Shown: piece after piece, positions 8,833-43,556 of the stretch
How the letters are laid out: each line of letters opens with the position of its first letter
Position numbering within the stretch: position 1 is the first letter of the stretch
From: an uncultured Lachnospiraceae bacterium
GTDB taxonomy: Bacteria; Bacillota; Clostridia; Lachnospirales; Lachnospiraceae
Length of the DNA stretch: 43,598 nucleotides
NCBI GenBank assembly: GCA_902760415.1
Contig: CACWGK010000011.1
Coordinates: 1 to 43,598 of the forward strand
Direction: 5' to 3'
Position numbers and translations under genes: made by a program
Notes under the pieces: model-generated
Databases searched by the model: none
Seen by the model: the letters and a program-made list of their open reading frames with translations, nothing else
What the model was told of the DNA's origin: nothing

Positions 8833-10035
8833 TTATCTCTTCTTCCCCTTTCCTGACTTTGGTTTCATAGTTGCAGCCTTAAGAGCTGAGTTTGATTTTT
8901 TATTCTCTCCTGCTAACTTATTAAGAGCATCCTCAACTTGCTTTTCTCGTTTTGCCTTATCACGCTTCATCTTCTCATACCTCTGACGAACACCTATCTC
9001 GACATTGTCATAATGTGTAGACTGAAGCACATCACCCTTCTTCTTTTCCACTACATGGTTTGACTCATCATAGAGCTTATACTCCTTATCCTTATCGAGA
9101 AATGTAAGAAGAGTTTTCCCTCCATGAATCTCCATAGTATTTTCCTTAGATATCCATAAATACCTTGCATTATCACCCCAGGTTCCTGGAACTCGAGTCT
9201 TAACTGCGTTAGGATTTTCCTCTACTATTAAAGTCTTACTGATTGTGATATCAATCATGCTGGCATTCTTGGAAAGCGATACCGCCTTCATTCTGTCAGC
9301 AATACCACGATAACTGCGAATACGATTATTAAATGAATCCTTATCCATCAGCACCTTATGATTTCCATCTCTGTCAGCCTGATCAAGAAGGCCCATGATG
9401 GAAAGCTTATTTATTACATTCTCAGCCTGATCCTGAGATACAGAAAAGTTCTCTTTTACTGAGTCCACACTGACACTCTGCTTTTCTGTCGCAAAATTAC
9501 CGACCTTCTCAAGCAGGTTGTCTATTGCGTTATCAACTATTTCCTCCTGTGCCGTGTGGCCTGTCAGGTTTCCCTTCTGCTTCTCCTTCTCAAGGAACTG
9601 CGTAAGCTTATCCATCTGTTCTCCATTCCCTTCTTTAAGATACTCATCGAAGGTTGCCACCTTACCATTCTTCATCTTCTGAAGCATCATATTTACTCTT
9701 GGTACTGCTTCTGAATGAAATACAATCTCTGAAAGTCCTTTTTCCTTATTGATATTAGGGAGAACCGAGTAAAGGATTCCATATTTCTTGGCAAGCTTTT
9801 CAACCTTCTTCATGTCCTCAGACTTAAACTGAAGCACCTGAAGATCTCCACCCTTCATAAGAAGTTTCCTCATATTTACCTTACCGAGCGACTTCTCATA
9901 ATCAAGCAGTCCTCTCAGCACTTCAAAGATTTTCTGCATAGCTTTGATACCGCCACTGCCGGCTTTCATTGCTATCTCTATTCCATCATAAGCGACACGA
10001 ATGATCTGTACCGCCTCCTGAATCTCTTCTGCCAT
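8833..10035 (-). CDS. PcfB/DUF3801 protein with FtsK-gamma-like winged helix
   Basis: A 400-residue accessory factor of the coupling protein. Residues about 10-125 match the PcfB/DUF3801 pattern, with the LAKKYGILYSVL and FHSEAVPRVNMML segments. Family members such as enterococcal PcfB work beside the VirD4-like PcfC. Unusually, residues about 186-232 read like the gamma winged-helix domain of FtsK/SpoIIIE: the segment FSVSQDQAENVINKL, then GLLDQADRDG and a terminal KVLM. A beta-rich domain (about 270-345) and a basic Lys-rich tail follow, both suggesting nucleic-acid contact. GGGAG lies about 8 bases before the ATG. It is immediately upstream of virD4 with no gap. Confidence 0.8.
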   Translation of the reverse strand: MAEEIQEAVQIIRVAYDGIEIAMKAGSGGIKAMQKIFEVLRGLLDYEKSLGKVNMRKLLMKGGDLQVLQFKSEDMKKVEKLAKKYGILYSVLPNINKEKGLSEIVFHSEAVPRVNMMLQKMKNGKVATFDEYLKEGNGEQMDKLTQFLEKEKQKGNLTGHTAQEEIVDNAIDNLLEKVGNFATEKQSVSVDSVKENFSVSQDQAENVINKLSIMGLLDQADRDGNHKVLMDKDSFNNRIRSYRGIADRMKAVSLSKNASMIDITISKTLIVEENPNAVKTRVPGTWGDNARYLWISKENTMEIHGGKTLLTFLDKDKEYKLYDESNHVVEKKKGDVLQSTHYDNVEIGVRQRYEKMKRDKAKREKQVEDALNKLAGENKKSNSALKAATMKPKSGKGKKR

Positions 10036-10050
10036 AGTTCCATCTCCCTT

Positions 10051-11514
10051 CTAGTATGCATAGCCCATGCTCTTTTCAAGCAGCGCTATCTCTATAATCT
10101 CCGGCATTTTTTCAGCAGGGACCTTACTCTCGATAAGATCCGTAAGCTGCCCCTCACTGAGTCCTTTCTTCATAGCCCCAACTATATGACTAAGCTGCGC
10201 CTTATTAAGTTCTCCGGATATAACCATTCGAACCAGACTTTGCTGAGACTTCTTCTTAAAACCGAGAAGCCCAAAGAGTCCACCTAAACCATTGGATTTT
10301 CTTCTTTCAATCTCTACCGGCATTGTTCCTACAATATTTCCATTGGAATCTTTTAGCGGAACCATATAGCCGCTGGTTGAAAGCTTGGAGTTCTGTTCCT
10401 CAGAAGTCTCAACCTTATCCTCTTCTGGGTTTGCCTTAAGATTTCTAAACATCTCGTAATAATCCTTCATTCTCTCAGCCGTCTCCTTACTCTTTTCTTC
10501 CAGCTCATTTCTAAGTGCATTCTCGGTTTTCTTATTCTCATCGGCCTCGCGTCTCAGCTCACTGATTTCCTTACGGATATCATCTATATTGATATCACTT
10601 AATTTACTCTCAGTCTTCACAGCTATATCAACATCTGTAGTGCGTTGCTTACTGATTTCTTCCAGAGTCTGCTTCTTAGCCTCTTCTATTGTCTGCTTCA
10701 TTGCAGCAGCTACAATAGCTTGGATTTTGTCTTCAGATACTGGCTTTTCGACCTCAGCCGGAGCAGTATCGTACGTTTTCTGTACATTGCTATTTGCATT
10801 ACTATTCATATAAGAAAACAGCTCCATCATCTGTTCAAATGTAAAGCCGTTGATTACTGTATTCTGAGAAACAGCAGCTTCAGGCTTTATACCTTCATCG
10901 CTCTTAGAATCGTTCTTCTCTTCAGCTTCCACTTCCGTCACAGTTTCTCCCGCAATCACTTCTGCTTTGGAATCATCATCACTTTCATCTTTTGTGGATT
11001 CATCCTCTTTCTCGTTCACCACAGTCTCCTCAATTTCATCAGATTTATCCTCTACAGGTGCTTCGGTCTCTTCAGTTCTAATTAAACCATCAGGAGTTTT
11101 CTTATTTTCTGCCTCTTCCTTTTCTTTCTTTATTTTGAGCAGATTCTGCTCATATAACCAGTACTCACTAAGCCTGGGAAACAAGGAATCATTAAAATGA
11201 AGATCTACATACTGTGCTGGGACACCTTCAGTTATATATCTCACAGCCTGGCTAATCTTCTCTTCCTTTATCTTCTTATCAAGATATTTATCTATCACTG
11301 ATTCAGGCGCACCTGCCCTAAGCAGAAAAGATATTATTTTCTTGCGTGTCTGACTTACATTCCTTTTGTAATACTTCCTAAGAAGCAAACGATCAATTCC
11401 TGCAATCAGATCGCATCTTGCCATCTTCTTATCATCTTTAGTGAGACCATTAACATTATCTAAATATTCAAGATCTTCTTTTATTTTCGCTTCATTTATC
11501 ACAAATTCTTCCAT
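10051..11514 (-). CDS. Conserved-looking coiled-coil transfer protein, function unknown
   Basis: A 487-residue protein between the relaxase and PcfB genes. I do not recognise a named family. The N-terminal 130 residues are helical and basic (Lys/Arg-rich). Residues about 135-215 are a highly acidic Glu/Asp/Ser/Thr linker. Residues about 255-355 are a coiled coil rich in Glu and Lys. The last 80 residues form a compact helical domain with the repeated pattern LSHIVGAMKKGLSEGQLTDL, echoed by RKKIISFLLRAGAPESVIDK near the N-terminus. GGAGGT lies 6 bases upstream of the ATG. It may bridge the relaxosome and the coupling protein, but this rests on position only. Confidence 0.75.
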   Translation of the reverse strand: MEEFVINEAKIKEDLEYLDNVNGLTKDDKKMARCDLIAGIDRLLLRKYYKRNVSQTRKKIISFLLRAGAPESVIDKYLDKKIKEEKISQAVRYITEGVPAQYVDLHFNDSLFPRLSEYWLYEQNLLKIKKEKEEAENKKTPDGLIRTEETEAPVEDKSDEIEETVVNEKEDESTKDESDDDSKAEVIAGETVTEVEAEEKNDSKSDEGIKPEAAVSQNTVINGFTFEQMMELFSYMNSNANSNVQKTYDTAPAEVEKPVSEDKIQAIVAAAMKQTIEEAKKQTLEEISKQRTTDVDIAVKTESKLSDINIDDIRKEISELRREADENKKTENALRNELEEKSKETAERMKDYYEMFRNLKANPEEDKVETSEEQNSKLSTSGYMVPLKDSNGNIVGTMPVEIERRKSNGLGGLFGLLGFKKKSQQSLVRMVISGELNKAQLSHIVGAMKKGLSEGQLTDLIESKVPAEKMPEIIEIALLEKSMGYAY

Positions 11515-11541: not shown

Positions 11542-13011
11542 CTATCTTATCTTTGGCTGTCTGATTAATTTCTTTTCTTCAATTTTCTTCTCCGGTTCTT
11601 TTTCCGCTGTATCCTTATCTACTTCTGGATTTCTGATCATTTCCTCTTCGAGTTCTTTTATTATAGATACAGCTATTCTTACATCTCTCGACGTTTTCTT
11701 GGACATCTCCTTAAGGAGAAGTTCTTCACTATGATAATGCTCCTTGAGTCTCCTTATCTCTTCATATGTATATCCTTCTTTCTTAAGCACATCATTAAGT
11801 TTAGAATACTTTCTATGCTCTGTTTCAAATTCTTTATCTCCCGACTGAAATAGTCTTTCGCCAGGAAGAAGATCACTCATTTCAGAAGCAACCTGATAAA
11901 GCTCTCTCAGTTTTTTAACAGTTCTATAATTTTTGTTCTTAGCTCCGGCAACTTTCCGTCTTTCTGAATCAAGATCACTCTTAACTTCCTTAAGATGGTC
12001 AAGTGAGGTTATATCATGTTCTACCAGAAACAGATACTGTTCCTCCAACTTATGCATCTTCTTTATCTCATCCCTAAACTGCCATGCTTTACTATAAGGT
12101 CTTCTTTGAATAAGTTTTAATCTATAGAGCCTTGCAAAGTATTTCTTCTGCACCGGACTAAGTTTGGCTCTCTTACCTCTTGGTATCTTCGAATAAACTA
12201 TTTTCTGAGCTTCCTCTTCAGTTTCAGCTCTGTAGGTATTAAGGGATTCATATGGAATTCTGTTTCGGATTGCTTCCTCAGTATAATCAATTCCAAGGGT
12301 CTCTTTCTTACATCTTCGGAATCTGGACATTTCCTTTCCTCGAAATGCCAGATACTTCCCTTCCTTTATTTCATATCCTCTGTCCTTCATTATCTGAAGA
12401 AACTCATCATAGCTATAAGCTTCAGCAATCGCCACATCAATATCACGCTTTATCATATCCGAGAAGTTATCAGCACCATCACGATAGGTATTATGATCCT
12501 TATATCGATCATGCTTTTCATTAGGATCAAGCTCGACTGTGCTAAGTCCTTCCTTACTTGTAAGACGATTAACTATCGGCTGTATAATCTTTGCCCAGTC
12601 ATTATTAGCATAATGGTATTTATAACCATCTACAAAACTGACACTGTTGAAAGCTATATGAATATGTATATGCTCCTTATCATCATGGACTGCAAATACC
12701 GTCTCATACTTATCAGACAGATATTCTGATATAAATTCTTCAGCTATCTTATATGCTGTATCTGCATCAGTCTCACCCGGCTTGAAGGATATAACAAAGT
12801 GATATCCCTGCCTCCCAGTTACCTTTCCGAAGCTATCCTTAGTCTGCTGCATAGTTATCGAAGCTGATTCCGGAATACAGTTCACAGCTCCAACCTTAGC
12901 CTCCTCCTGAGTTTTTTCAGGATTCATCATATAAGTAAGAAGTCTGTTTAAGTGTCCTGCATGATCAGAAGTACCGGTATCCTTGATATTCATCAACTTA
13001 GTTATTGCCAA
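11542..13011 (-). CDS. MobA-type relaxase (MOBP class)
   Basis: The 489-residue DNA relaxase that nicks oriT and pilots the strand through the channel. The conserved opening MAITKL is followed by Tyr27 in LLTYMMNPEKT as likely nucleophile, and by the metal-binding H114-x-H116-x-H118 in DDKEHIHIHIAFNSV. The C-terminal half is Lys/Glu-rich and helical. The start is TTG at 13011, chosen because MAITK is a conserved family N-terminus and AGAGGTGG lies 9 bases upstream; the next ATG (12993) would remove it. It overlaps the mobC end by 14 bases. Confidence 0.92.
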   Translation of the reverse strand: MAITKLMNIKDTGTSDHAGHLNRLLTYMMNPEKTQEEAKVGAVNCIPESASITMQQTKDSFGKVTGRQGYHFVISFKPGETDADTAYKIAEEFISEYLSDKYETVFAVHDDKEHIHIHIAFNSVSFVDGYKYHYANNDWAKIIQPIVNRLTSKEGLSTVELDPNEKHDRYKDHNTYRDGADNFSDMIKRDIDVAIAEAYSYDEFLQIMKDRGYEIKEGKYLAFRGKEMSRFRRCKKETLGIDYTEEAIRNRIPYESLNTYRAETEEEAQKIVYSKIPRGKRAKLSPVQKKYFARLYRLKLIQRRPYSKAWQFRDEIKKMHKLEEQYLFLVEHDITSLDHLKEVKSDLDSERRKVAGAKNKNYRTVKKLRELYQVASEMSDLLPGERLFQSGDKEFETEHRKYSKLNDVLKKEGYTYEEIRRLKEHYHSEELLLKEMSKKTSRDVRIAVSIIKELEEEMIRNPEVDKDTAEKEPEKKIEEKKLIRQPKIR

Positions 13012-13327
13012 GTCGCTTCACCACCTCTGCCATACTTAAGCTAAGGCGCTGCATATAAGCAAGAAGCCTATCCTTATCGGAAGGAAGATATAATCCGGAG
13101 TTATTATTTTTTACCACCTGATTGATATTTATACCAATATGATTAATCTCAGTCAGCATATCATGAAGAATAATTCTTATTTCTTTATGATCCATCGGTC
13201 CCTTAGAAATGCACAGCCTTATATAATCGCTTTCCTTCATCCCTGACTCCAAGGCCCTCGCTGATAAGAGTGCAGCTTCCTTTTCTGAAATTCTAAAGCC
13301 TTTAACAATCGATTTCCCTCTCGCCAT
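12998..13327 (-). CDS. MobC-like relaxosome accessory protein
   Basis: A 109-residue protein with an N-terminal ribbon-helix-helix-like segment (KGFRISEKEAALL, then MKESDYIRLCIS) and the MobC-type helix NHIGININQVVKN. Such proteins bind oriT and help the relaxase to open and nick DNA. The start is ATG 13327 rather than 13333 because GGGAGG is 7 bases before the former and only 1 base before the latter. It is the first gene downstream of the oriT/repeat region. Confidence 0.82.
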   Translation of the reverse strand: MARGKSIVKGFRISEKEAALLSARALESGMKESDYIRLCISKGPMDHKEIRIILHDMLTEINHIGININQVVKNNNSGLYLPSDKDRLLAYMQRLSLSMAEVVKRLGNN

Positions 13328-13416
13328 AAGCATTCCTCCCTTCTTTTATCTGTATGAAATCTCTGGTCACATCACCTTCATGTTTTGATGTTTTGAAATC
13401 ATTTGAATATAGTGGC

Positions 13417-13476
13417 AAGATACGCAAAATGTTTAACATTTCCATTTTGCATCTTGTTAGGGAGCACCCTAAGACC
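13417..13476. other. Candidate oriT with MOBP-type nic
   Basis: AAGAT-ac-GCAAAATG (13417-13431) and CATTTTGCATCTT (13443-13455) form an imperfect inverted repeat with an 11-base loop. At its right edge the plus strand reads GCATCTTG/TTAG, matching the MOBP nic consensus YATCYTG/Y with cleavage after 13456. A second small hairpin TTAGGG-agca-CCCTAA follows at 13457-13472. The site is 85 bases upstream of mobC, the usual location. The minus strand contains a mirror candidate, GTATCTTG/CCAC, at the other arm. A plus-strand nick would transfer the tra genes last. Confidence 0.62.
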
Positions 13477-13519
13477 CCTGATATATATGAATCCTGTTAA
13501 ATCCCTATAAAATTCATAA

Positions 13520-13697
13520 GTTCCAACAATTTGTTGGCAAAAACCCATGAGTTCCAACAATTTGTTACACAAAAGCGGCTTCTGCCAACAATCTGTTACA
13601 CAGGCATTTTTCGTGTTACACAATTTGTTGGCAGAAACTCCCGAGTTCCAACAATTTGTTACACAAATCATCCATCTGCCAACAATTTGTTACACAG
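13520..13697. repeat. Six phased palindromic repeats (iteron-like array)
   Basis: Six copies of an 11-bp near-palindromic core AACAATTTGTT have cores at 13525, 13556, 13587, 13619, 13650 and 13681, i.e. spacings of 31, 31, 32, 31 and 31 bp, close to three helical turns. Each core is flanked by one of three arm types (TTCC, TGCC/GGCA, TGT/ACACA), so the sites are composed of interchangeable half-sites; the fourth is inverted in arm order. The array fills the gap between the primase stop and the oriT. It is too regular to be chance and is most like binding sites for a replication, partition or relaxosome protein. Confidence 0.88.
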
Positions 13698-14696
13698 TTA
13701 TTTTTTGATACCCGACTTAAGATATTCATACTTTCTTTCAGCTACAGAGTCAGATGATAATTTCAGTTTTGTAGCCACCAGCCACTCATTTATATCTTTA
13801 TACATGACTGGAGCCGAGGCATCCTTTACCTCATAGCCCTTATCTCTATACTTCTGAATCAGTTTTTCAGCAGCTAACCTTCCAGGTTCATCGTTATCAA
13901 GAGCAAACTCAATTTTACTAATACCCGGATGATCACTTAAAAATGTTTCAAGGGGAAGATCTGCTGTCATTCCCAGTGCAATCATATTGCTGTCAAAATC
14001 CTGAAAGATATCTACATAGCTCATCATGTCTATAGCTGCTTCAAACACTACTATCCGATTACTATTATCATTTGTAATATTGAAACCGTACATCTTATCA
14101 TTTCCTGCCACATCACATTTAAAAGCTTTCCCATCTCTATCATAGATTCCTCTCTGGCTTGCAAATCTTGTGACACCACTCTTATCATTTCCGAGGAATA
14201 CCACATTATGATATTCCTGGCTCTCATATATAATGCCCTTACGGATAAAATAATCTATTGTACTTATGCTAAGCCCTCTATCCTGATTAAGATATCTGAT
14301 GATCCTATCATTATTCGAAGCAGGTACCGGAAGGATAAATTCCTTCTTTTCAGATACTGGTTTATCATTATGAATGATACAATCTCCCGAAACAGTTTCC
14401 CCTATGCTGTCATGTCTGACTCCTGCAAAATCCAGAAGCCAGAACACAGCATCTTTAACATCCAGTCCTGCGAACTCTCTTAAGAAATCTATTTGAGAAC
14501 CACCGTTCCTTCCACTCTCACATTTACCGGAAAAACGGAACCAATTTCTATGGTCATAGATTCTCATAGAATCCATTTCCTTCAAAGTATAGAACCGTCC
14601 TATTTTCTTAGGTGTATATCCAAGACTTCTGGCTACCTCAACAAGATCAACTGACTTCGCTATACTTAGTTCTTCTTCAGTGAATCTATCGCTCAT
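13698..14696 (-). CDS. TOPRIM-domain DNA primase (DUF3991-type)
   Basis: A 332-residue primase-like protein probably used to start complementary-strand synthesis on transferred single-stranded DNA. The N-terminal domain (about 1-90) has the DUF3991/zinc-finger-like region with WFRFSG and GGSQIDFLREFAG. The TOPRIM domain (about 195-290) shows the catalytic Glu in VVFEAAIDMMS and the metal-binding DNDEPGRLAAEK. No helicase domain is fused. The ATG overlaps the TGA of the RadC-like gene (ATGA). The repeat array begins immediately after its stop. Confidence 0.85.
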   Translation of the reverse strand: MSDRFTEEELSIAKSVDLVEVARSLGYTPKKIGRFYTLKEMDSMRIYDHRNWFRFSGKCESGRNGGSQIDFLREFAGLDVKDAVFWLLDFAGVRHDSIGETVSGDCIIHNDKPVSEKKEFILPVPASNNDRIIRYLNQDRGLSISTIDYFIRKGIIYESQEYHNVVFLGNDKSGVTRFASQRGIYDRDGKAFKCDVAGNDKMYGFNITNDNSNRIVVFEAAIDMMSYVDIFQDFDSNMIALGMTADLPLETFLSDHPGISKIEFALDNDEPGRLAAEKLIQKYRDKGYEVKDASAPVMYKDINEWLVATKLKLSSDSVAERKYEYLKSGIKK

Positions 14697-16548: not shown

Positions 16549-19500
16549 TTACTCTTCTATATCCTCATCATCGTCATCATATTCTTCAATATCATCTACC
16601 ATAGAAGTCTTTTTACTGAAGAATATATATGATACCGCAAAGAGTATAAATGCAAGTCCGATAGCACCACAGACAAATGGATTATAATTATCACCTGTCT
16701 GAGGAAGCTTAGGCTGTGTAGGCTTATTAGTAAGATCAAGTGTATACTCAACTACCTCTGGAGCCTTTGCATCATCCTGAAGCTTACCATTCTCATCTCT
16801 TCCATAGGTGAATGTCACCTCATGAGGAGTACTATCAAGAATATAATCTTCTTTAGCCTTTGTTTCGACTACAGTATAAGTTATATCCTTATCGAAGCTG
16901 CCATCTTTGTCAAAGGTACAGATTGGAAGCAGATCACTTTCAGCACATCCATCCTTACCGGTTACAAGCGTCTGAATCACCTTACCATCCTTATCTCTGA
17001 TTTCGAATTCAACACCCTCAATCATGGTATTAAGCTCGGAATCTCTCTTCTTAAGGAGCAGTTTTCCATATACATAGTCATCCTTCATCTGACACTTCTG
17101 AATCTCGCCTGAATCCTTAACCTCAAACTCTATATCGTTCGCTATGGTATATCCATAAGGTGAAGTCTCCTCTCTAAGAGTGTACTTACCTGCCGGTATC
17201 TTCTCAACCATATGAGGTTCCTTAGTACTGGTCCAGGTCTCAACAGTCTTACCTTCGGAATCAATGATAGTAAGTTTTGCACCTTCAAGTTCTTTTTCTC
17301 CAGTCACATCTGTTTTACTAAATTCAACCTTAATAGGAACATCTTTGAACTCTGCTTCGAACTTAAGTACTTTTTCTCCTTCAGGATTATATGATGCATC
17401 AATCTGCACTTTTTCTTTATTGGAAGCATAACCCTTAGGAGGTTCAATTTCCTGGATATAATACTTTCCAAGCGGAAGATCTGATACAAAGTGAATCTTT
17501 CCTTCAGAATCTGTAACAGCCTTTTCAATTAGACTGTCTGTTTGAAGCTTTGCATCAGTTTCAGTGCAAATTATTTCCTCAGCAGAATACAGTCCAAACA
17601 TAGCGCCTTCAAGAGCTTTACCCGTTTCTGAATCCTTCTTTATAACAGAGATTTCTACCTTCTGTCTTTCGTTAAAGATATGGTCTCCAGCATAAACGAT
17701 AGGAGTATCCTGATCCATATATGAAAGGTCAGCATCAATAGGTGTGCTATCCAGCATAAAGCCTTCAAGTGTATCAGTCTCAACCAGATAATACTTACCA
17801 AGTGGCAGCTTATCTATAAATGCTACACCTTTATCGTTTGTTACAAGAGTTGCAACAAGTTCATCCTTCTCATAGTAAACAGTATCAATACCATCAGGAC
17901 TAACTATATCTTCCTTTGCATATACTTCAAAAGTTACGCCAGCCATGGATTTCTTCTTCCAACTGAACAGGAAGTCATACCACTTATCCTGGGTAGCCTC
18001 AATATCCTGAAGGAACTCTCCATCCTTATTGATGATTATTGTACCTGTAGGTACCTCGTCCTTCATAGTTACTGACTGGATTTCTTCTGTATCAATTACA
18101 GTGAACTCCACATCTGTCGCTCTGAGATATCCATAAGGTGCGAACTCCTCACGAAGTATATATGTTTCTCCAACCACAAGTCTCTTAAGCACATGCTTTT
18201 CACCTGCCTTTGATGTCCAGGTTTCTACCACGTTACCATCCTTATCGATCACTGAAAGTGTAGCCCCACTAAGCTCAGCACCACTTGTTATATCCTCCTT
18301 GGAGAATTCGAAGCTTGTAGGAGTATTTATAAACTCACTACTGTACTTTGCTACAGGAGTATTCTCATCGATATACCTGGCATCGAACTCGATTACCTCA
18401 TCAGATGAAACATATCCAGCCGGTGTTTTGATTTCCTTTGCAGTATACTTACCAAAAGGATAATCCTTAGTGAACTTTATAAGTCCATCTGCATCTGAAG
18501 TTGCCTGTTCCAGAAGTGTTCCTGCCTCAACAACAACCTTACCATCTCTGGTCTTAATATCTTCAGCTGCATAAAGTCCGAAGACTGCACCTTCGATAGC
18601 TCTGTCATCTTCTGCATCACGCTTTTCTACAACAAGCTCAAGTTTTTCTCGTTCATCCTTAAATGTCTTTGTGTCATAGATTACAGGAGTCTCATCATCA
18701 GCATAAACAAGTGTACTGGTCTGTTCCTGAGGATCAAGCAGATATCCAAACGGAGCCTTTGTTTCAACAACTTTGTACTGTCCAAGAGGAATATCCTTAA
18801 GTACTGCTTTACCTTCTGCATCAGAAGTAAGCGTTGCTACCAGGTCTCCCTCACTATAATACTTTGTTCTCTCCCCAGACTCATCCACCTGGTTATCAGC
18901 AGTATAAATATCCTCAGCTGCATATACCTCGAACTCTGCCCCTTCAAGACCACCTTCAACATATACGAACTCTTTTTCGTCACTGTCAGCAAACCATCCA
19001 CCTTCATAACCTTCAAGTACTTCACCACGCTTTTCTATGGTAATCTCACCCTTTGTTGGATGATTCTCATATTCCACTGTGATAATAGCCTCGTAGGTGT
19101 CAGGATCTGTCTCATAGAAAGTATCAGTATCAACTGCGACCTCAACATAGTTCTCATTCTTCACATAGCCATAAGGTGCTGCTATTTCTTCTATTCGGTA
19201 ATTTCCAAGGTGAAGTACCTGAGGAAGTAAAAGATCACCATCATCATCTGTCTTAAAAGTCTTATGTGTAACCTTTGAAGGATAAGTTGTGATCATCTCA
19301 ACATATTCCTCTGTATCCATGTTGTAGATACGGAACTCAGCGTTAGGAAGAAGAACTGTTTTCTGAGTCTCATCATCCTTCTTTATAATTCTGAGCTTTG
19401 CACTGAACTCCCTGTCTATGAATACTCGCCAAACAAGAGGTTCATCCGGCTTATGCTCTGTGATTCTTACCTCAAATGGCTTTACTGTTTCCATGTTGTG

Positions 19501-22032
19501 AGGTGTGACTGACTCAACCACGATATAGGTTCCATATGGTATCGGAATAGATACTGCATGTCCCTTTTTATCTGTATAGATAGTGGTCTCTCCCTTACCT
19601 TCGGCTGCTTCCTTTCCAGTTACTTTGCCTCCGATAACTATAGGGGTAGCATTATCAAAATCATAGCTGCCGTCTTCCTTTACAGGAAGCTTTGACTTAA
19701 GGTAAGCTGTAAAGCCTGCTCCTTCAAGAAGCGGTGCCTCAGTATCCTCGCCATTATCTGATACTTTGATCAGCTGGAATGGCTGCTTCTTAACCTGCTC
19801 CTCAGATGTTGACTCTCTCGCTACCTCTGCTACAAGATCACCCTCATAATCACATTTAAGGTCATGCTCCTCAGTGTCAATGTTATAACCTACCGGAGCC
19901 TCTATCTCTTTGATGTAATAATCACCTAGATACAAGTTTTTAATCTCAGCCTCTGCATTTGCATCTGTTTTAAGCTCTGCAACTTTTGTCCCCTTCTTAT
20001 AGAGGACTCCTGTCTTTCCATCAGGATGAACTATATCATTTCTGGCATAAAGCCCATAAACTGCACCTTCAAGTGAAGCATCTCCCTGAGGATAAGGTTT
20101 TCCTGTTTCCTTATCTATCTTGTAAAGATGAATCTTGGCAGTTACCCTGTCATTCTCAAAGGTATGCTTAAATTCAGCTGTAGGTGTCTTCTCGTCCATG
20201 GCTTCAAATGAAAAGCTGAATACATCCGACTGATTACGAAGATATCCATATGGCGCTTTAGTCTCCTTAATGTAATAAGAGTTAGCTATTGGAAGATCTA
20301 CTGTATAGGTTCCGTTACCATCGTTTTCGGTTATAGCCGTCTGAATTGCAGTATCCTTCTTCATGATAACCTTTCCGTCATAACTCTTAATGTCATTTCC
20401 GGCATACATGGTATACTCTCCACCTTTAAGTGGATTCTTAGTATCCTTATCAATCTTAGATACATTCACCTTTGCCTTCTGACGCTTATTCTCAATAGTC
20501 ACACTCTCAAACTGAACTTCAACATTCTGATCCTTATATTCAATCGTTACAGTCTTTGTCTCTCCGTTGATAGTATATCCACTGATACTCTTTGTCTCGG
20601 TAACATTATAGGTCCCAAGATGAAGATTATTGAGCGTCACCTGACCATCCTTACCACTCACAAGACCATCAGCAATTACAGCACCTTTGTTATAAACCTT
20701 TGCACCATCGGCTCGGTAAATATCTGCTCCTGCCGTAACCTTAAAGGTGGCTCCTGGAAGCTTTCTCTTCTCATAAGCAAAGTTGGTTCCATTCCATCCT
20801 ACAAGTACCTCTCCTTCCTTATAAATGGTAAGTGCTCCCACCTGCTCAGAATCCTTAGCGGTAAATGAAGTCGTCTGACCTGCTTTAACTACAAGTGTAT
20901 GAACATCCTTATCAAGAACATATCCTCTTGGCGAAGATATTTCCTTTACATAGTAAGTTCCTGGTGTTAGTGGTCCTGACTTACATCCACCGTCATCACC
21001 TGTGACCATCTTCTCCACAAGTGCAGTACATCCACTATCGGAATAAATACCATAGGTCGCACCCGGAAGCTTTGTTCCTGTAGCCTTGTCCTGCTTCTCA
21101 AGATATCCATAACCTATATCTTCAGTTTTCACTTTGATATAAGCATAGATAGGATCCGCTGAAGGTCTTTCAGATACGAACTCCTGATAATTACTATTAC
21201 CATTAAACCAGAATACACAGCTCGATGTTGGTTCAACCTTTCCAGTATTTGATGTAAATGTACCAGTAGTTGCCTCAGTCTGAACCTTTGTACTTGAAAT
21301 GGTCAGCTTATTACCATCCACAGAAGTATCATAACCCTTGAGACTAAGATCAAAGCCTTTAAGCTCCTTATTCTTATCTGTAAGTGTTATTTCATATCTC
21401 TGATTTGTCTCATTCCACTTCAGTTCTATGGTTTCTGCACCACTCTTAGTCTTGCTGGCAAAGCTTGGTATCTTCTGATCATAAGCTGCACCGATACTGT
21501 CTCTTAAAGTTTTATAATAACCATAACAAGTATCAGGATCCGGAGCACATCTTGAAAGAGTATAGGCAGCATTATCTGCACTATCTGTTCCAAAGAGTCC
21601 TTTTTCTATGATCCATACCTGACTCTGCGTTGCAATGAACTGATCCTTCTTGTCATTTGATGGCTCATTCTGTGTATCTGCTGTATCCGCATAACCATAA
21701 TACAGACAAAGAGCAAGCAGTTTTTCCTGCTTTGCAGAAAGACTTGTATTGTTCGGTTCATCATCACTCTTCATCAGTTCACCAGTTTCAGCCGTAAGAC
21801 CAAAATTAAGGCAATAGCCTATCTTCCCATCTATCATGGCATATAGAATCTGACCTGTATGAGAAGAATTGAATTCTGACACAACGCCATGCTCACTTGC
21901 TGATGCATACCAGAAGCTTATATTTGCCTCAGCACTTGCAGCAAATGCTGTCATAGCCGATCCGGACACAGATGAAACTACAATCAAAAGAGCCATTATA
22001 AATGACATAAATCGTTTTAGTTTCTGTCTCAT
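16549..22032 (-). CDS. Giant sortase-anchored thioester/CnaB surface protein (SpaA-like)
   Basis: A 1827-residue wall-anchored adhesin, probably promoting cell-cell contact in mating or host attachment. It has a signal peptide (about 1-32). A thioester domain follows, with Cys74 in GYCLNFG and Gln136 in ATQSQVW as the likely internal thioester pair. Then come about 13 CnaB/SpaA-type repeats, recognised by the recurring E-x-x-AP-x-GY strand (for example KAPYGYL, EAPVGYN, EAPFGY-like variants), which can form Lys-Asn isopeptide bonds. The sortase signal LPQTG is at 1776-1780 with a membrane helix. The tail after the KK pair is oddly acidic (about 16 residues). The start at ATG 22032 has AAGGAGG upstream; the longer frame to 22116 lacks one and would disrupt the signal peptide. 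Confidence 0.93.
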   Translation of the reverse strand: MRQKLKRFMSFIMALLIVVSSVSGSAMTAFAASAEANISFWYASASEHGVVSEFNSSHTGQILYAMIDGKIGYCLNFGLTAETGELMKSDDEPNNTSLSAKQEKLLALCLYYGYADTADTQNEPSNDKKDQFIATQSQVWIIEKGLFGTDSADNAAYTLSRCAPDPDTCYGYYKTLRDSIGAAYDQKIPSFASKTKSGAETIELKWNETNQRYEITLTDKNKELKGFDLSLKGYDTSVDGNKLTISSTKVQTEATTGTFTSNTGKVEPTSSCVFWFNGNSNYQEFVSERPSADPIYAYIKVKTEDIGYGYLEKQDKATGTKLPGATYGIYSDSGCTALVEKMVTGDDGGCKSGPLTPGTYYVKEISSPRGYVLDKDVHTLVVKAGQTTSFTAKDSEQVGALTIYKEGEVLVGWNGTNFAYEKRKLPGATFKVTAGADIYRADGAKVYNKGAVIADGLVSGKDGQVTLNNLHLGTYNVTETKSISGYTINGETKTVTIEYKDQNVEVQFESVTIENKRQKAKVNVSKIDKDTKNPLKGGEYTMYAGNDIKSYDGKVIMKKDTAIQTAITENDGNGTYTVDLPIANSYYIKETKAPYGYLRNQSDVFSFSFEAMDEKTPTAEFKHTFENDRVTAKIHLYKIDKETGKPYPQGDASLEGAVYGLYARNDIVHPDGKTGVLYKKGTKVAELKTDANAEAEIKNLYLGDYYIKEIEAPVGYNIDTEEHDLKCDYEGDLVAEVARESTSEEQVKKQPFQLIKVSDNGEDTEAPLLEGAGFTAYLKSKLPVKEDGSYDFDNATPIVIGGKVTGKEAAEGKGETTIYTDKKGHAVSIPIPYGTYIVVESVTPHNMETVKPFEVRITEHKPDEPLVWRVFIDREFSAKLRIIKKDDETQKTVLLPNAEFRIYNMDTEEYVEMITTYPSKVTHKTFKTDDDGDLLLPQVLHLGNYRIEEIAAPYGYVKNENYVEVAVDTDTFYETDPDTYEAIITVEYENHPTKGEITIEKRGEVLEGYEGGWFADSDEKEFVYVEGGLEGAEFEVYAAEDIYTADNQVDESGERTKYYSEGDLVATLTSDAEGKAVLKDIPLGQYKVVETKAPFGYLLDPQEQTSTLVYADDETPVIYDTKTFKDEREKLELVVEKRDAEDDRAIEGAVFGLYAAEDIKTRDGKVVVEAGTLLEQATSDADGLIKFTKDYPFGKYTAKEIKTPAGYVSSDEVIEFDARYIDENTPVAKYSSEFINTPTSFEFSKEDITSGAELSGATLSVIDKDGNVVETWTSKAGEKHVLKRLVVGETYILREEFAPYGYLRATDVEFTVIDTEEIQSVTMKDEVPTGTIIINKDGEFLQDIEATQDKWYDFLFSWKKKSMAGVTFEVYAKEDIVSPDGIDTVYYEKDELVATLVTNDKGVAFIDKLPLGKYYLVETDTLEGFMLDSTPIDADLSYMDQDTPIVYAGDHIFNERQKVEISVIKKDSETGKALEGAMFGLYSAEEIICTETDAKLQTDSLIEKAVTDSEGKIHFVSDLPLGKYYIQEIEPPKGYASNKEKVQIDASYNPEGEKVLKFEAEFKDVPIKVEFSKTDVTGEKELEGAKLTIIDSEGKTVETWTSTKEPHMVEKIPAGKYTLREETSPYGYTIANDIEFEVKDSGEIQKCQMKDDYVYGKLLLKKRDSELNTMIEGVEFEIRDKDGKVIQTLVTGKDGCAESDLLPICTFDKDGSFDKDITYTVVETKAKEDYILDSTPHEVTFTYGRDENGKLQDDAKAPEVVEYTLDLTNKPTQPKLPQTGDNYNPFVCGAIGLAFILFAVSYIFFSKKTSMVDDIEEYDDDDEDIEE

Positions 22033-22063
22033 TTTTCTTAATTCCTCCTTACAAATTTGCAAC

Positions 22064-22099
22064 AAAAAAGAGAGACTCAAGCTATGGCTCAAATCTCTC
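22064..22099 (-). terminator. Intrinsic terminator/attenuator before the surface-protein gene
   Basis: A 13-bp stem (22087-22099 with 22070-22082, three G-U pairs) with a 4-base loop is followed by TTTTTTG, 30 bases before the start codon of the CnaB protein and after the lipoprotein gene. It ends lipoprotein transcription or attenuates the surface-protein gene. Confidence 0.82.
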
Positions 22100-22148
22100 A
22101 GTTGTATACCTTTCATTTCGGTATATTTATATTTAGTTGTATATATCC

Positions 22149-23308: not shown

Positions 23309-23746
23309 CTATGACCATAAATCAGTCAATTCATCTAAAGCTTGTTCAGCTTCCTTTTTACCTTTTTCAGTAGGTGATTCATTTACCTGCGAACTAAAAC
23401 CAATATTATTGAAGTTACCTCCACCTGATTTTAGTGTAGTTATCACCATACTGAATAATTCTTGTCTTATCTCAGCCTCTAATTCTTTCTTTAATATTTC
23501 CCTTTGTTTATCCACATACTCCTTTGTTGCATATCCCCCTTGTTTTTTTATTTCCTTACTGCCCTCGCCAGTAAGAAGATCAATATCTGCATCAAGAAGC
23601 GTTTTCTTAAGAATATCTATTATGAAATTGCTTTTGTTTCGATATATTTCAGGGTTTAGATCTCGAAGTATTTTGTGAATTGCTAAATGCTCTGGATTGT
23701 TTATATTTAACCTGAAACCATAATGAATGCTTTCATCACTGGACAT
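23309..23746 (-). CDS. ParR-like partition adaptor
   Basis: A 145-residue partner of the ParM-like protein. The N-terminal half (about 9-52) resembles a ribbon-helix-helix with YGFRLNINN as strand and NKSNFIIDILKK as second helix. The C-terminal half is helical and charged, ending in an acidic segment as expected for the ParM-binding tail of ParR. It overlaps the end of the actin-like gene by 11 bases. AAGGAG lies 9 bases upstream of the ATG. The centromere it would bind is not proven; the array at 13520-13697 is one candidate. Confidence 0.65.
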   Translation of the reverse strand: MSSDESIHYGFRLNINNPEHLAIHKILRDLNPEIYRNKSNFIIDILKKTLLDADIDLLTGEGSKEIKKQGGYATKEYVDKQREILKKELEAEIRQELFSMVITTLKSGGGNFNNIGFSSQVNESPTEKGKKEAEQALDELTDLWS

Positions 23747-24656
23747 TCATCTTCTCCTTTGACATCGTTATCTTAGCCAATGTTTCAAATCCTTTAGCAT
23801 TTGCACAAATATCAGTATTAAAGGAAAAATTATTCTGATTGAAGCTTCCAAAGTTCTTCATTACTACAGCACCACCACCCACAAATACAAATGGGGTTGT
23901 TTTTAGGCTATATTTTTCTTCTCTGAGAGAATTTATTACCATTGAGATAAATGAACTTATTTCCTGATTCATTATCTGTATGTATTCATCAGATAGTGAG
24001 CTTTTATGTGATATCATATATTCCTTTATAAGCTCTTCATCTATCTTTTCTCCAAGCTGCCTTACACATTGCTTATTGATATTTCTCATACATGTTATGA
24101 TTCCCTGCTGGATTGAATCAGTTCCTGCCTCATCAGGCTTTTTATTCACTACGGGAATTATATCTATAGTCCAGCTTCCAATATCTACAACAACCACCTT
24201 TGGACCAAACATAGCAATACGATCAACAACCGCTGCATAGCACTGGGGATAAACAAGAATTCTATCAATCCAGATATGATACTTAGTTTGTTCAAACTTG
24301 AAATATACTTCATCATTTTGTTTGAGATACTTAATGAATTCATTCTTTTCATCACCGTATCTCGAAGCCGGAAGACCTACTGAAAGTACCACTCTTGCTT
24401 CTGTCTTATTTCTTAACTTTAATTCCTTTGCGATACCCGCAAGTGTCAGATAATAATAATCGGGTGTTTCTACCTTTGTAGCTTTTACCTCTAACCTATC
24501 AGTTCCAACCTTGAAGTATCTGCCTTTGTATTCCAGAATGTTATCAAAGTAGGCAGGCTCAGTAGTTATCTCACTCACGCCACTGATATAAATATCATTC
24601 GGAGTCTTGCACATAGACCAGCCGTGATCTATTGCAATAATCTCTAAATCCCTCAT
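23736..24656 (-). CDS. ParM/StbA-type actin-like ATPase
   Basis: A 306-residue plasmid-segregation actin homologue. The actin-fold nucleotide motifs are visible: phosphate-1 in IIAIDHGWSMCK (D10), phosphate-2 in VVVDIGSWTID (about 154-164) and the adenosine motif VFVGGGAVVM (about 264-273). Length fits ParM/Alp proteins (about 300-400). It overlaps the Cys-rich gene by ATGA and the ParR-like gene by 11 bases, forming a tight operon. Presence on an ICE suggests a plasmid-like replicating phase after excision that needs active segregation (inference). Confidence 0.88.
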   Translation of the reverse strand: MRDLEIIAIDHGWSMCKTPNDIYISGVSEITTEPAYFDNILEYKGRYFKVGTDRLEVKATKVETPDYYYLTLAGIAKELKLRNKTEARVVLSVGLPASRYGDEKNEFIKYLKQNDEVYFKFEQTKYHIWIDRILVYPQCYAAVVDRIAMFGPKVVVVDIGSWTIDIIPVVNKKPDEAGTDSIQQGIITCMRNINKQCVRQLGEKIDEELIKEYMISHKSSLSDEYIQIMNQEISSFISMVINSLREEKYSLKTTPFVFVGGGAVVMKNFGSFNQNNFSFNTDICANAKGFETLAKITMSKEKMNVQ

Positions 24657-43074: not shown

Positions 43075-43157
43075 AGCTAATTTTCTAGTTAATCTATCCG
43101 CTAATTTGTTAGCTAATTTATTAGTTAATTTATTAGCTAATTTGTTGGCTAATTAAC
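43075..43157. repeat. 12-bp tandem repeat array (GCTAATTTRTTA)
   Basis: About seven near-identical 11-13-base units of the form AGCTAATTTRTT or AGTTAATTTATT run in tandem. The region has no ORF. A 15-bp palindrome (ATGTATA-T-TATACAT, 43182-43196) lies just right of it. The word GCTAAT recurs in the 73-bp repeat further right. Confidence 0.85.
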
Positions 43158-43335
43158 ACGATATTTCATAAACCAGTCCGAATGTATATTATACATCAAC
43201 CGAAATGAGGCCGCAACAGCGACATTATTCCCAGAGGCTCCCGGCCGCCACTCTTTCTTGCTTCCCGTAGCTTTCCGTTTACCACTACCTTCCTGAAAAA
43301 TTTCCGGTCCATGCTGCCACCACACTCTCTTGCTA

Positions 43336-43556
43336 CCCCAGCTAATTTTTCACTACTTTCTGCTCTAGAATTAGCTGTTCCTACTCTCCTCCATCCTTCT
43401 GGAAGCTTCCCCAGCTAATTTTCCACCACATTCCTCTCTAAAATTAGCTGTTTCACCTCTCCTCCACTCTTCTGGAAGCTTCCCCTGCTAATCTTTCACC
43501 ACATTCCTCTCTAGAATTAGCTGTTCCAGTCATCCACCACCCTTCTGGAAGCTTCC
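43336..43556. repeat. 73-bp tandem repeat, three copies with internal hairpins
   Basis: Three copies begin with CCCC at 43336, 43409 and 43482, exactly 73 bp apart, each with TTCTGGAAGCTTCC at 43397, 43470 and 43543. Each unit carries an AGCTAAT/ATTAGCT inverted repeat; in the second copy it is a perfect 10-bp stem (43413-43422 with 43440-43449). GGAAGCTTCC is itself palindromic. No ORF crosses it. Confidence 0.9.

Follow-up and report, generated by a model that had tools for sequence, protein, structure and literature searches.

We analysed a stretch of 43,598 nucleotides, referred to as the window, from contig CACWGK010000011.1 of an uncultured Lachnospiraceae bacterium, which carries genes of an integrative and conjugative element (ICE) and, between a primase-like gene and a putative origin of transfer (oriT), a phased array of palindromes that is a candidate centromere. 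Read along the minus strand, genes for ParM, ParR, a surface protein with SpaA repeats, a DUF5688 protein, a RadC-type protein and a DUF3991/Toprim primase lead up to the array. It is followed by the oriT-like block, mobC and the genes of the relaxase, a 487-amino-acid (aa) protein, a DUF3801 protein and a VirD4-type coupling protein, beyond which a TraG/VirB4-type ATPase gene lies further on. The edge of the array abuts the stop codon of the primase gene (13698, minus strand), and the oriT-like block lies about 40 base pairs (bp) from the array. We infer that this block, at 13411-13480, is the oriT, the sole basis being conserved inverted repeats adjoining mobC in relatives. The array and its nearest neighbours are:

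13520..13697, no strand: array of six phased, imperfect palindromes, a proposed parC-like centromere for ParR, from sequence and relatives
13520..13540: site 1, 27.0 bits (21-bp matrix)
13551..13571: site 2, 26.0 bits (21-bp matrix)
13582..13602: site 3, 22.3 bits (21-bp matrix)
13614..13634: site 4, 19.4 bits (21-bp matrix)
13645..13665: site 5, 26.0 bits (21-bp matrix)
13676..13696: site 6, 25.1 bits (21-bp matrix)
13526..13611: higher-order repeat, copy 1; copy 2, at 13620-13705, lies 94 bp on and is 85% identical
13411..13480, minus strand: oriT-like block, inverted repeats TTAGGG/CCCTAA and GCAAAATG/CATTTTGC with GCGTATCTTGC, conserved beside mobC; presumed oriT
13698..14696, minus strand: DUF3991/Toprim primase-like protein, stop codon abutting the array

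The six palindromes, of about 21 bp each, occupy positions 13520-13696. Their cores start at 13525, 13556, 13587, 13619, 13650 and 13681, which bears out the six cores and the spacings of 31, 31, 32, 31 and 31 bp described in a first-pass annotation of this DNA. The arms are of three types (TTCC, TGCC/GGCA and TGTTACACA), and all those that the annotation had distinguished, the third as TGT/ACACA, are present. Four of the six sites have the exact core AACAATTTGTT, and the remaining two (AACAATCTGTT and CACAATTTGTT) are each one base off. With up to one mismatch on both strands, the core has 10 matches in the window, all 10 of them inside the array, where 100 dinucleotide shuffles give 1.17 on average and never more than 5; a 12-base core (CAACAATTTGTT) has four exact matches in its own genome, all within the array. 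The six sites reach 19.4-27.0 bits in a 21-bp matrix, scoring high by construction since the matrix was built from them, and the next best place in the window reaches 11.8. Superimposed on this is a higher-order repeat with a period of 94 bp, in which cores 1-3 and 4-6 lie in 86-nucleotide stretches that are 85% identical; the array grew via a 94-bp duplication, and part of its regularity is therefore due to copying. An Rfam scan of the array and its flanks (13300-13800) gave no match.

Of 299 genomes drawn from the family, 73 have homologs of the primase (E<=0.001), and MobC has relatives at 12 loci in genome_contigs, most of them titled Lachnospiraceae. Arrays of relatives (designated below by L numbers) were sought at the place between the primase stop codon and the oriT-like block, and their words are rare elsewhere, as judged from word counts. 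Nearly all elements with a closely related primase have an array there. The words themselves vary widely, from GTGGGGGC..GCCCCCA (L051), TGGTAG..CTACCA (L054, L099) and TGCTAGCA (L101) to TGGATTAA..TTAATCCA (L071), AAGTAGGAAACCTACTT (L100) and the direct repeats TGGTGTAG of L069, and the oriT-like block is still recognisable in relatives whose array word differs. Absence of the array from the same position in related elements, which the first-pass annotation had named as telling against its proposal, is thus not what we find: place and geometry are kept, and the sequence is not. A search for the same core next to the primase elsewhere, which it had recommended, would have missed these relatives, whose words differ. 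In L095, the stretch between primase and mobC holds three units of the array and then unrelated DNA that interrupts it; the contig of L077 ends at the array, and L083 has a truncated primase with no array after it. Among more distant primase matches, L073, L074, L076, L078 and L080-L082 have neither oriT-like block nor array beside the primase, that of L074 being adjoined by a distant ParM-like gene. Wider sampling at E<=1e-60 gave few new elements (7 of 392 genomes in an order draw, and only the element's own genome among 391 in a class draw), family draws gave mostly repeats, nothing new came from two genus draws (3 and 4 genomes), and a search of viral_contigs with the primase and two array words gave no matches. 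Where one genome holds at least two array-bearing ICEs (G110, G716, G641, G122 and G002), each ICE has a different array, from which we draw no inference because arrays mostly differ anyway.

In several relatives, one or two further genes separate the array from mobC. This bears on the idea that the array, which does lie upstream of mobC, is an operator through which a repressor, of XRE type or another, controls mobC-relaxase transcription: the intervening genes and the many half-sites spread over about 180 bp fit it poorly, as does the fact that the XRE protein of the window is unmatched in many of the fetched stretches, which cover parts of elements, and we regard it as very improbable.

The geometry is shared far more widely than the words. 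For 22 of 23 arrays, none of the array's 15 shuffles reached the repeat count of its best 8-mer, with a tie for L065 (palindromic words were counted on both strands, in arrays and shuffles alike). Lags of 31/32, 64, 96 and 128 bp, and of 54, 86 and 118 bp, recur among the arrays of relatives; a repeated 7-mer lies exactly 32 bp apart in 17 of 22 arrays, and the window array uses 31. Altogether, 168 distances between repeated 7-mers from 22 arrays (15-140 bp, each counted once per array, L054 being omitted as the twin of L099) agree with a 10.75-bp periodicity at R=0.666; for 300 sets of random integers, the best R has its 99% point at 0.205. A shared phase of 10.75 bp would put the sites on one helix face whatever their sequence, and the one-face phasing suggested for the window array therefore holds across its relatives. 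The same phase suits binding by a protein to double-stranded DNA in arrays unrelated in sequence, which speaks against a replication origin made of iterons or of single-strand initiation hairpins used with the primase-like protein. The array adjoins the primase-like gene, and most arrays are able to form hairpins, with fold z scores of -2.7 or lower in 21 of 23 (40 shuffles each), as such a role would predict, but L065 reaches only z=-1.6 and the direct repeats of L069 have no hairpin excess (z=+1.0), so that a hairpin or single-strand role is weakened as a general explanation. No Rep protein is present among 16 window proteins scanned, a subset of the open reading frames (ORFs), and array change does not follow primase identity; we consider an origin of either kind quite improbable.

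Candidate readers of such an array, and other proteins of the element, are encoded by the following genes:

23736..24656, minus strand: ParM-like actin (MreB-like_C, ALP_N; PHROG 'partition protein', 2.7e-32)
23309..23746, minus strand: proposed ParR, 145 aa, after ParM; variable N-terminal strand, two helices, C-terminal W
12998..13333, minus strand: MobC/NikA-like relaxosome protein
11542..13011, minus strand: relaxase (MobA/VirD2-like)
10051-11514: 487-aa protein of no known family, after the relaxase
8833-10035: DUF3801 protein with a sub-threshold FtsK-gamma-like stretch (residues 172-230, E=6.7e-6)
16549-22116, minus strand: long SpaA-repeat surface protein (neighbouring gene)

With both ALP_N and MreB-like_C above the Pfam cut-offs, the ParM of the window qualifies as an actin-like ParM. 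The end of its gene is overlapped by that of the 145-aa protein, which we propose to be ParR from its position and predicted fold rather than from a database match. A model of its N-terminal 61 aa (predicted local distance difference test, pLDDT, 85) places helices at residues 18-28 and 38-51 (pLDDT near 90) after an extended stretch, a predicted fold as expected of a ribbon-helix-helix monomer. Across an alignment of 27 such proteins, R12 and H20 hardly vary, residues 4-11 rank with the most variable of the domain, and 24 of the 27 have a W close to the C-terminus. The best match in a PDB profile search was a weak one to MazE4 (E=0.15).

Which protein changes with the array was assessed in all 20 pairs (29 elements) whose ParM proteins are at least 80% identical. 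The array is kept in 8 of these pairs (identity 0.77-0.98) and lost in 12 (0.56-0.66), chance identity having a mean of 0.52, a standard deviation of 0.05 and a maximum of 0.60 of 60. The ParR strand, taken as the eight residues preceding the conserved R-x-N/S, is identical at 8/8 positions in every kept pair and retains 0-4 of 8 in each changed one, and the rest of ParR separates the two classes too (0.76-1.00 versus 0.41-0.66). Ranges for kept and changed pairs overlap for MobC (0.84-1.00 versus 0.65-0.99), the relaxase (0.75-0.99 versus 0.71-0.98), the primase (0.80-0.99 versus 0.74-0.93) and ParM (0.87-1.00 versus 0.82-0.91). Near-duplicates inflate these counts, and independent comparisons number about seven kept, most of them between near-copies, and four changed. 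In three of the four changed pairs, no other shared protein that we compared is as poorly conserved as ParR, with identities of 46% (window/L042), 51% (L051/L094) and 36% (L068/L100). The fourth, L063/L066, has different arrays even though MobC is 99%, the relaxase 94-98% and ParM 91% identical, with ParR at 64%. L051/L056 and L052/L056, on the other hand, have arrays 94-95% and ParR 99% identical with a relaxase of only 75-76% and a MobC of 84%. For L042 and L043 we used the only ParM match in the genome and its ParR, on another contig, and for L054, L097 and L099 those nearest on the same contig. The comparison leaves aside L053, L055, L058 and L059 (ParR off the contig or unassignable), L095 (array interrupted), L102 (no ParR found), L077 and L131 (contig end, in L077 at the array), L039 and L040 (near-copies of the element in the window), L079 (same place as L100) and L083 (truncated primase, no array).

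These pairs also bear on the view that the array is a relaxosome accessory site, where MobC, the relaxase or another transfer protein would assemble the relaxosome at oriT. Its distance of 40 bp from the oriT-like block, the retention of array, block and mobC by satellites (see below) and a long-range correlation of MobC similarity with array similarity would all suit such a site. Yet the arrays of L063 and L066 differ despite nearly the same MobC and relaxase, the L056 pairs keep theirs with a divergent relaxase, and the oriT-like block persists among elements whose array sequences have changed, all of which makes this view, offered by the first-pass annotation as a relaxosome assembly site, unlikely. 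MobC was rejected as reader of the array on the strength of L063/L066, in which the site does not co-vary with it, though MobC correlates with the array at long range. The 487-aa protein was rejected as well, being 73-82% identical where arrays are kept and 85% in one changed pair, and so was the DUF3801 protein, whose FtsK-gamma-like stretch made it a possible DNA reader: the window and L042 differ in array but have 99% identical copies of it. The 487-aa protein evolves unusually fast, with 45-85% identity in three pairs whose type IV secretion system (T4SS) proteins are about 75-98% identical.

The array is also where the words are concentrated. Matches to the best word of each element number 197 in arrays (5,214 bp) and 397 in other sequence (450,418 bp). 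According to excerpts of PMC9426499, the usual location of parC is upstream of parM. Over 20 elements, the 600-bp stretches preceding parM (12,000 bp) hold 15 word matches, versus about 10.6 expected at the rate found elsewhere, and the best site score in the window between parM and the XRE gene is 7.3 bits; the usual place of parC thus appears to be without a comparable array. Each of the 32 array-bearing ICEs that could be traced along the contig or in the genome yielded a ParM (those that could not are L053, L055, L058, L059 and L131). Two array-less ICEs with an oriT-like block, L049 (35 kb examined) and L075 (the whole 36-kb contig), gave no ParM or ParR match better than E=0.04, and the match at that value lies inside the relaxase gene; the contig of L049 has a ParM-like gene, 28% identical, about 95 kb away.

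We therefore read the array, with a probability of roughly 70%, as an oriT-linked, fast-diversifying, parC-like centromere of the ParM-ParR system, bound by ParR. Of the three roles proposed by the first-pass annotation (replication origin, centromere or relaxosome assembly site), the centromere is the best supported, by the joint change of array and ParR in close relatives, and there is no positive evidence for the replication origin. ParR dimers would bind half-sites on one face of the helix, in units of three turns, and the resulting ParR-DNA superstructure would cap ParM filaments, a capture that we propose by likeness to ParMRC plasmids (excerpts of PMC9426499). Such capture would position the excised circle in the cell, probably along with the relaxosome and oriT, and the placement of the array at oriT suggests that the same ParR complex may help to bring oriT and the relaxosome to the transfer machine. 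Array word and N-terminal ParR strand change in step in close relatives, which would give each element family a private address.

A number of observations weigh against this reading. The array lies about 10 kb from parMR and not upstream of parM, where there may still be a few sites, 8 of the 15 upstream matches being in L060 and L063. Neither Pfam, NCBIfam, PHROGs nor PDB yields a convincing counterpart of ParR, and Foldseek gave no match for either ParR model. L102, a relic on an Enterococcus plasmid, has an array and no ParM or ParR in 37 of 51.6 kb, and no ParM was found in the satellite L133 despite its own ParR. As to the pairs, 5 of the 8 kept ones are near-copies in which everything is conserved, so that only L051-L052/L056 and L054/L099 are informative; the overlaps of primase and ParM ranges rest on the single pair L054/L099, and two changed pairs (0.66 and 0.64) lie just above the chance maximum of 0.60. 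Three matches fall below the 64% of ParR in L063/L066: two partial ones and a 194-aa ORF (35%), located in L063 at 18207-18791 (oriented as the primase) between array and mobC and with no counterpart in the window. Mantel tests on 23 elements do not single out ParR, most proteins correlating with the array as well or better, and the ParR strand has no consistent partial correlation with array similarity, which tracks general relatedness across all distances. Finally, L071/L072 and L061/L098 have similar ParR strands and unlike arrays. Given the Mantel result and these last pairs, our claim is limited to co-change in close pairs and does not extend to a recognition code.

Satellites offer another view of the match between array and ParR. 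The oriT-like block, with up to 2 mismatches, occurs in 9 of 61 genomes of the genus, one match with 2 mismatches and without mobile context probably being due to chance. Satellites L134 (6085 region) and L133 (2710 region) have the oriT-like block, mobC and integrases that are 92.5% identical, beside a low-molecular-weight phosphatase gene, and neither has a relaxase match better than E=0.96. L134 (the L044 stretch) holds an array, the oriT-like block, mobC and the integrase, and a search for ParR found none in it. Its genome also has an ICE with a window-type array (L040), and its own array scores z=5.9 on the window site matrix, the four best matches being 63, 42 and 65 bp apart. In L133 (L045), which encodes a ParR itself, the array is unrelated (z=-0.1). 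Among the other 22 element arrays, 21 score from -1.7 to 1.9, and only the sister L042 is high, at 4.9. Such satellite arrays would be expected if an array must suit the available ParR, with one satellite of each sort. A similar case may be SGI1, a mobilizable satellite that copies the parS sites of IncC and uses the partition protein of its helper (excerpts of PMC10954446); SGI1, however, concerns ParABS, Gram-negative hosts and a plasmid helper, and here the sites would be of ParMR type and are known from sequence similarity alone. We offer only tentatively the broader idea that each ICE bears, on a fixed helical scaffold, a private and fast-changing ParR tag at its transfer origin, which would select the segregation and transfer machinery and so allow related ICEs to share a cell, satellites copying the tag of a helper (L134) or bringing their own ParR and tag (L133).

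ParR bound to the array might also stimulate the relaxosome directly, partition being secondary or lost. Placement at oriT would agree with such a double function, as would the satellite with ParR in which no ParM was found and the genome of L040, in which parM appears interrupted (L088/L091, residues 1-148 and 211-306 matching separately) and ParR is 99% identical to that of the window. Excerpts of PMC4949242 likewise link ParM and ParR of plasmid R1 to relaxosome and T4SS function, with stimulation of the TraI relaxase and of transfer. But R1 ParR does not bind oriT (PMC4949242, same excerpts), and a ParM gene is present in 32 of 32 array-bearing ICEs that could be followed, interrupted in one; this possibility seems to us less likely than not.

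The centromere that we propose resembles the ParMRC systems of Clostridium perfringens plasmids, as excerpts of PMC9426499 describe them, in its actin-type ParM, its diverging ParR and its family-specific repeat arrays; in that species, a plasmid ParR binds only the parC of its own family. These plasmids have parC upstream of parM and direct repeats (17 bp in one family) whose sequence and spacing differ between families, whereas here the array lies about 10 kb from parMR, at oriT and on ICEs, with the spacing kept and the sequence changed. The srpMRC system of SXT/R391 is a partition system on an ICE in which SrpR binds repeats in srpC, although SrpR has no homology with known ParR (excerpts of PMC4489591). 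There, srpC sits between srpM and mobI, in an intergenic region from which an oriT fragment was probed together with it, so that a partition site neighbouring oriT sets a precedent for the coupling of centromere and oriT; hypervariability is not mentioned in the excerpts. NAH7 likewise has a partition-linked protein, ParR, that binds the oriT region and enhances transfer, but this ParR is homologous to KorA and belongs to a type I system (excerpts of PMC12421886). Excerpts of a study of genome-encoded ParMs (PMC12270681) contain nothing bearing on arrays at oriT, and in the open-licence PMC literature searched we did not see described either the 10-kb separation from parMR or a fixed spacing with a changing word.

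If our reading is correct, centromere and transfer origin would be joined in one site on a group of Firmicute ICEs, a natural system for the study of the coupling between segregation and conjugation. Close relatives would supply natural pairs for the recognition code of ParR, with fixed spacing, a changing word and a putative DNA-reading strand in step, and natural pairs to ask whether ICE compatibility and the hitchhiking of satellites depend on that code.

Pieces of this ICE family also occur on plasmids of Enterococcus (L102, 17989-23039) and Lactococcus (L103, 8563-9501) that carry optrA and fexA; both pieces have the primase, to which that of L102 adds the array, the oriT-like block, mobC and the relaxase. 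At the contig end of the window (43075-43556) lie tandem repeats of 36 bp and 73 bp.
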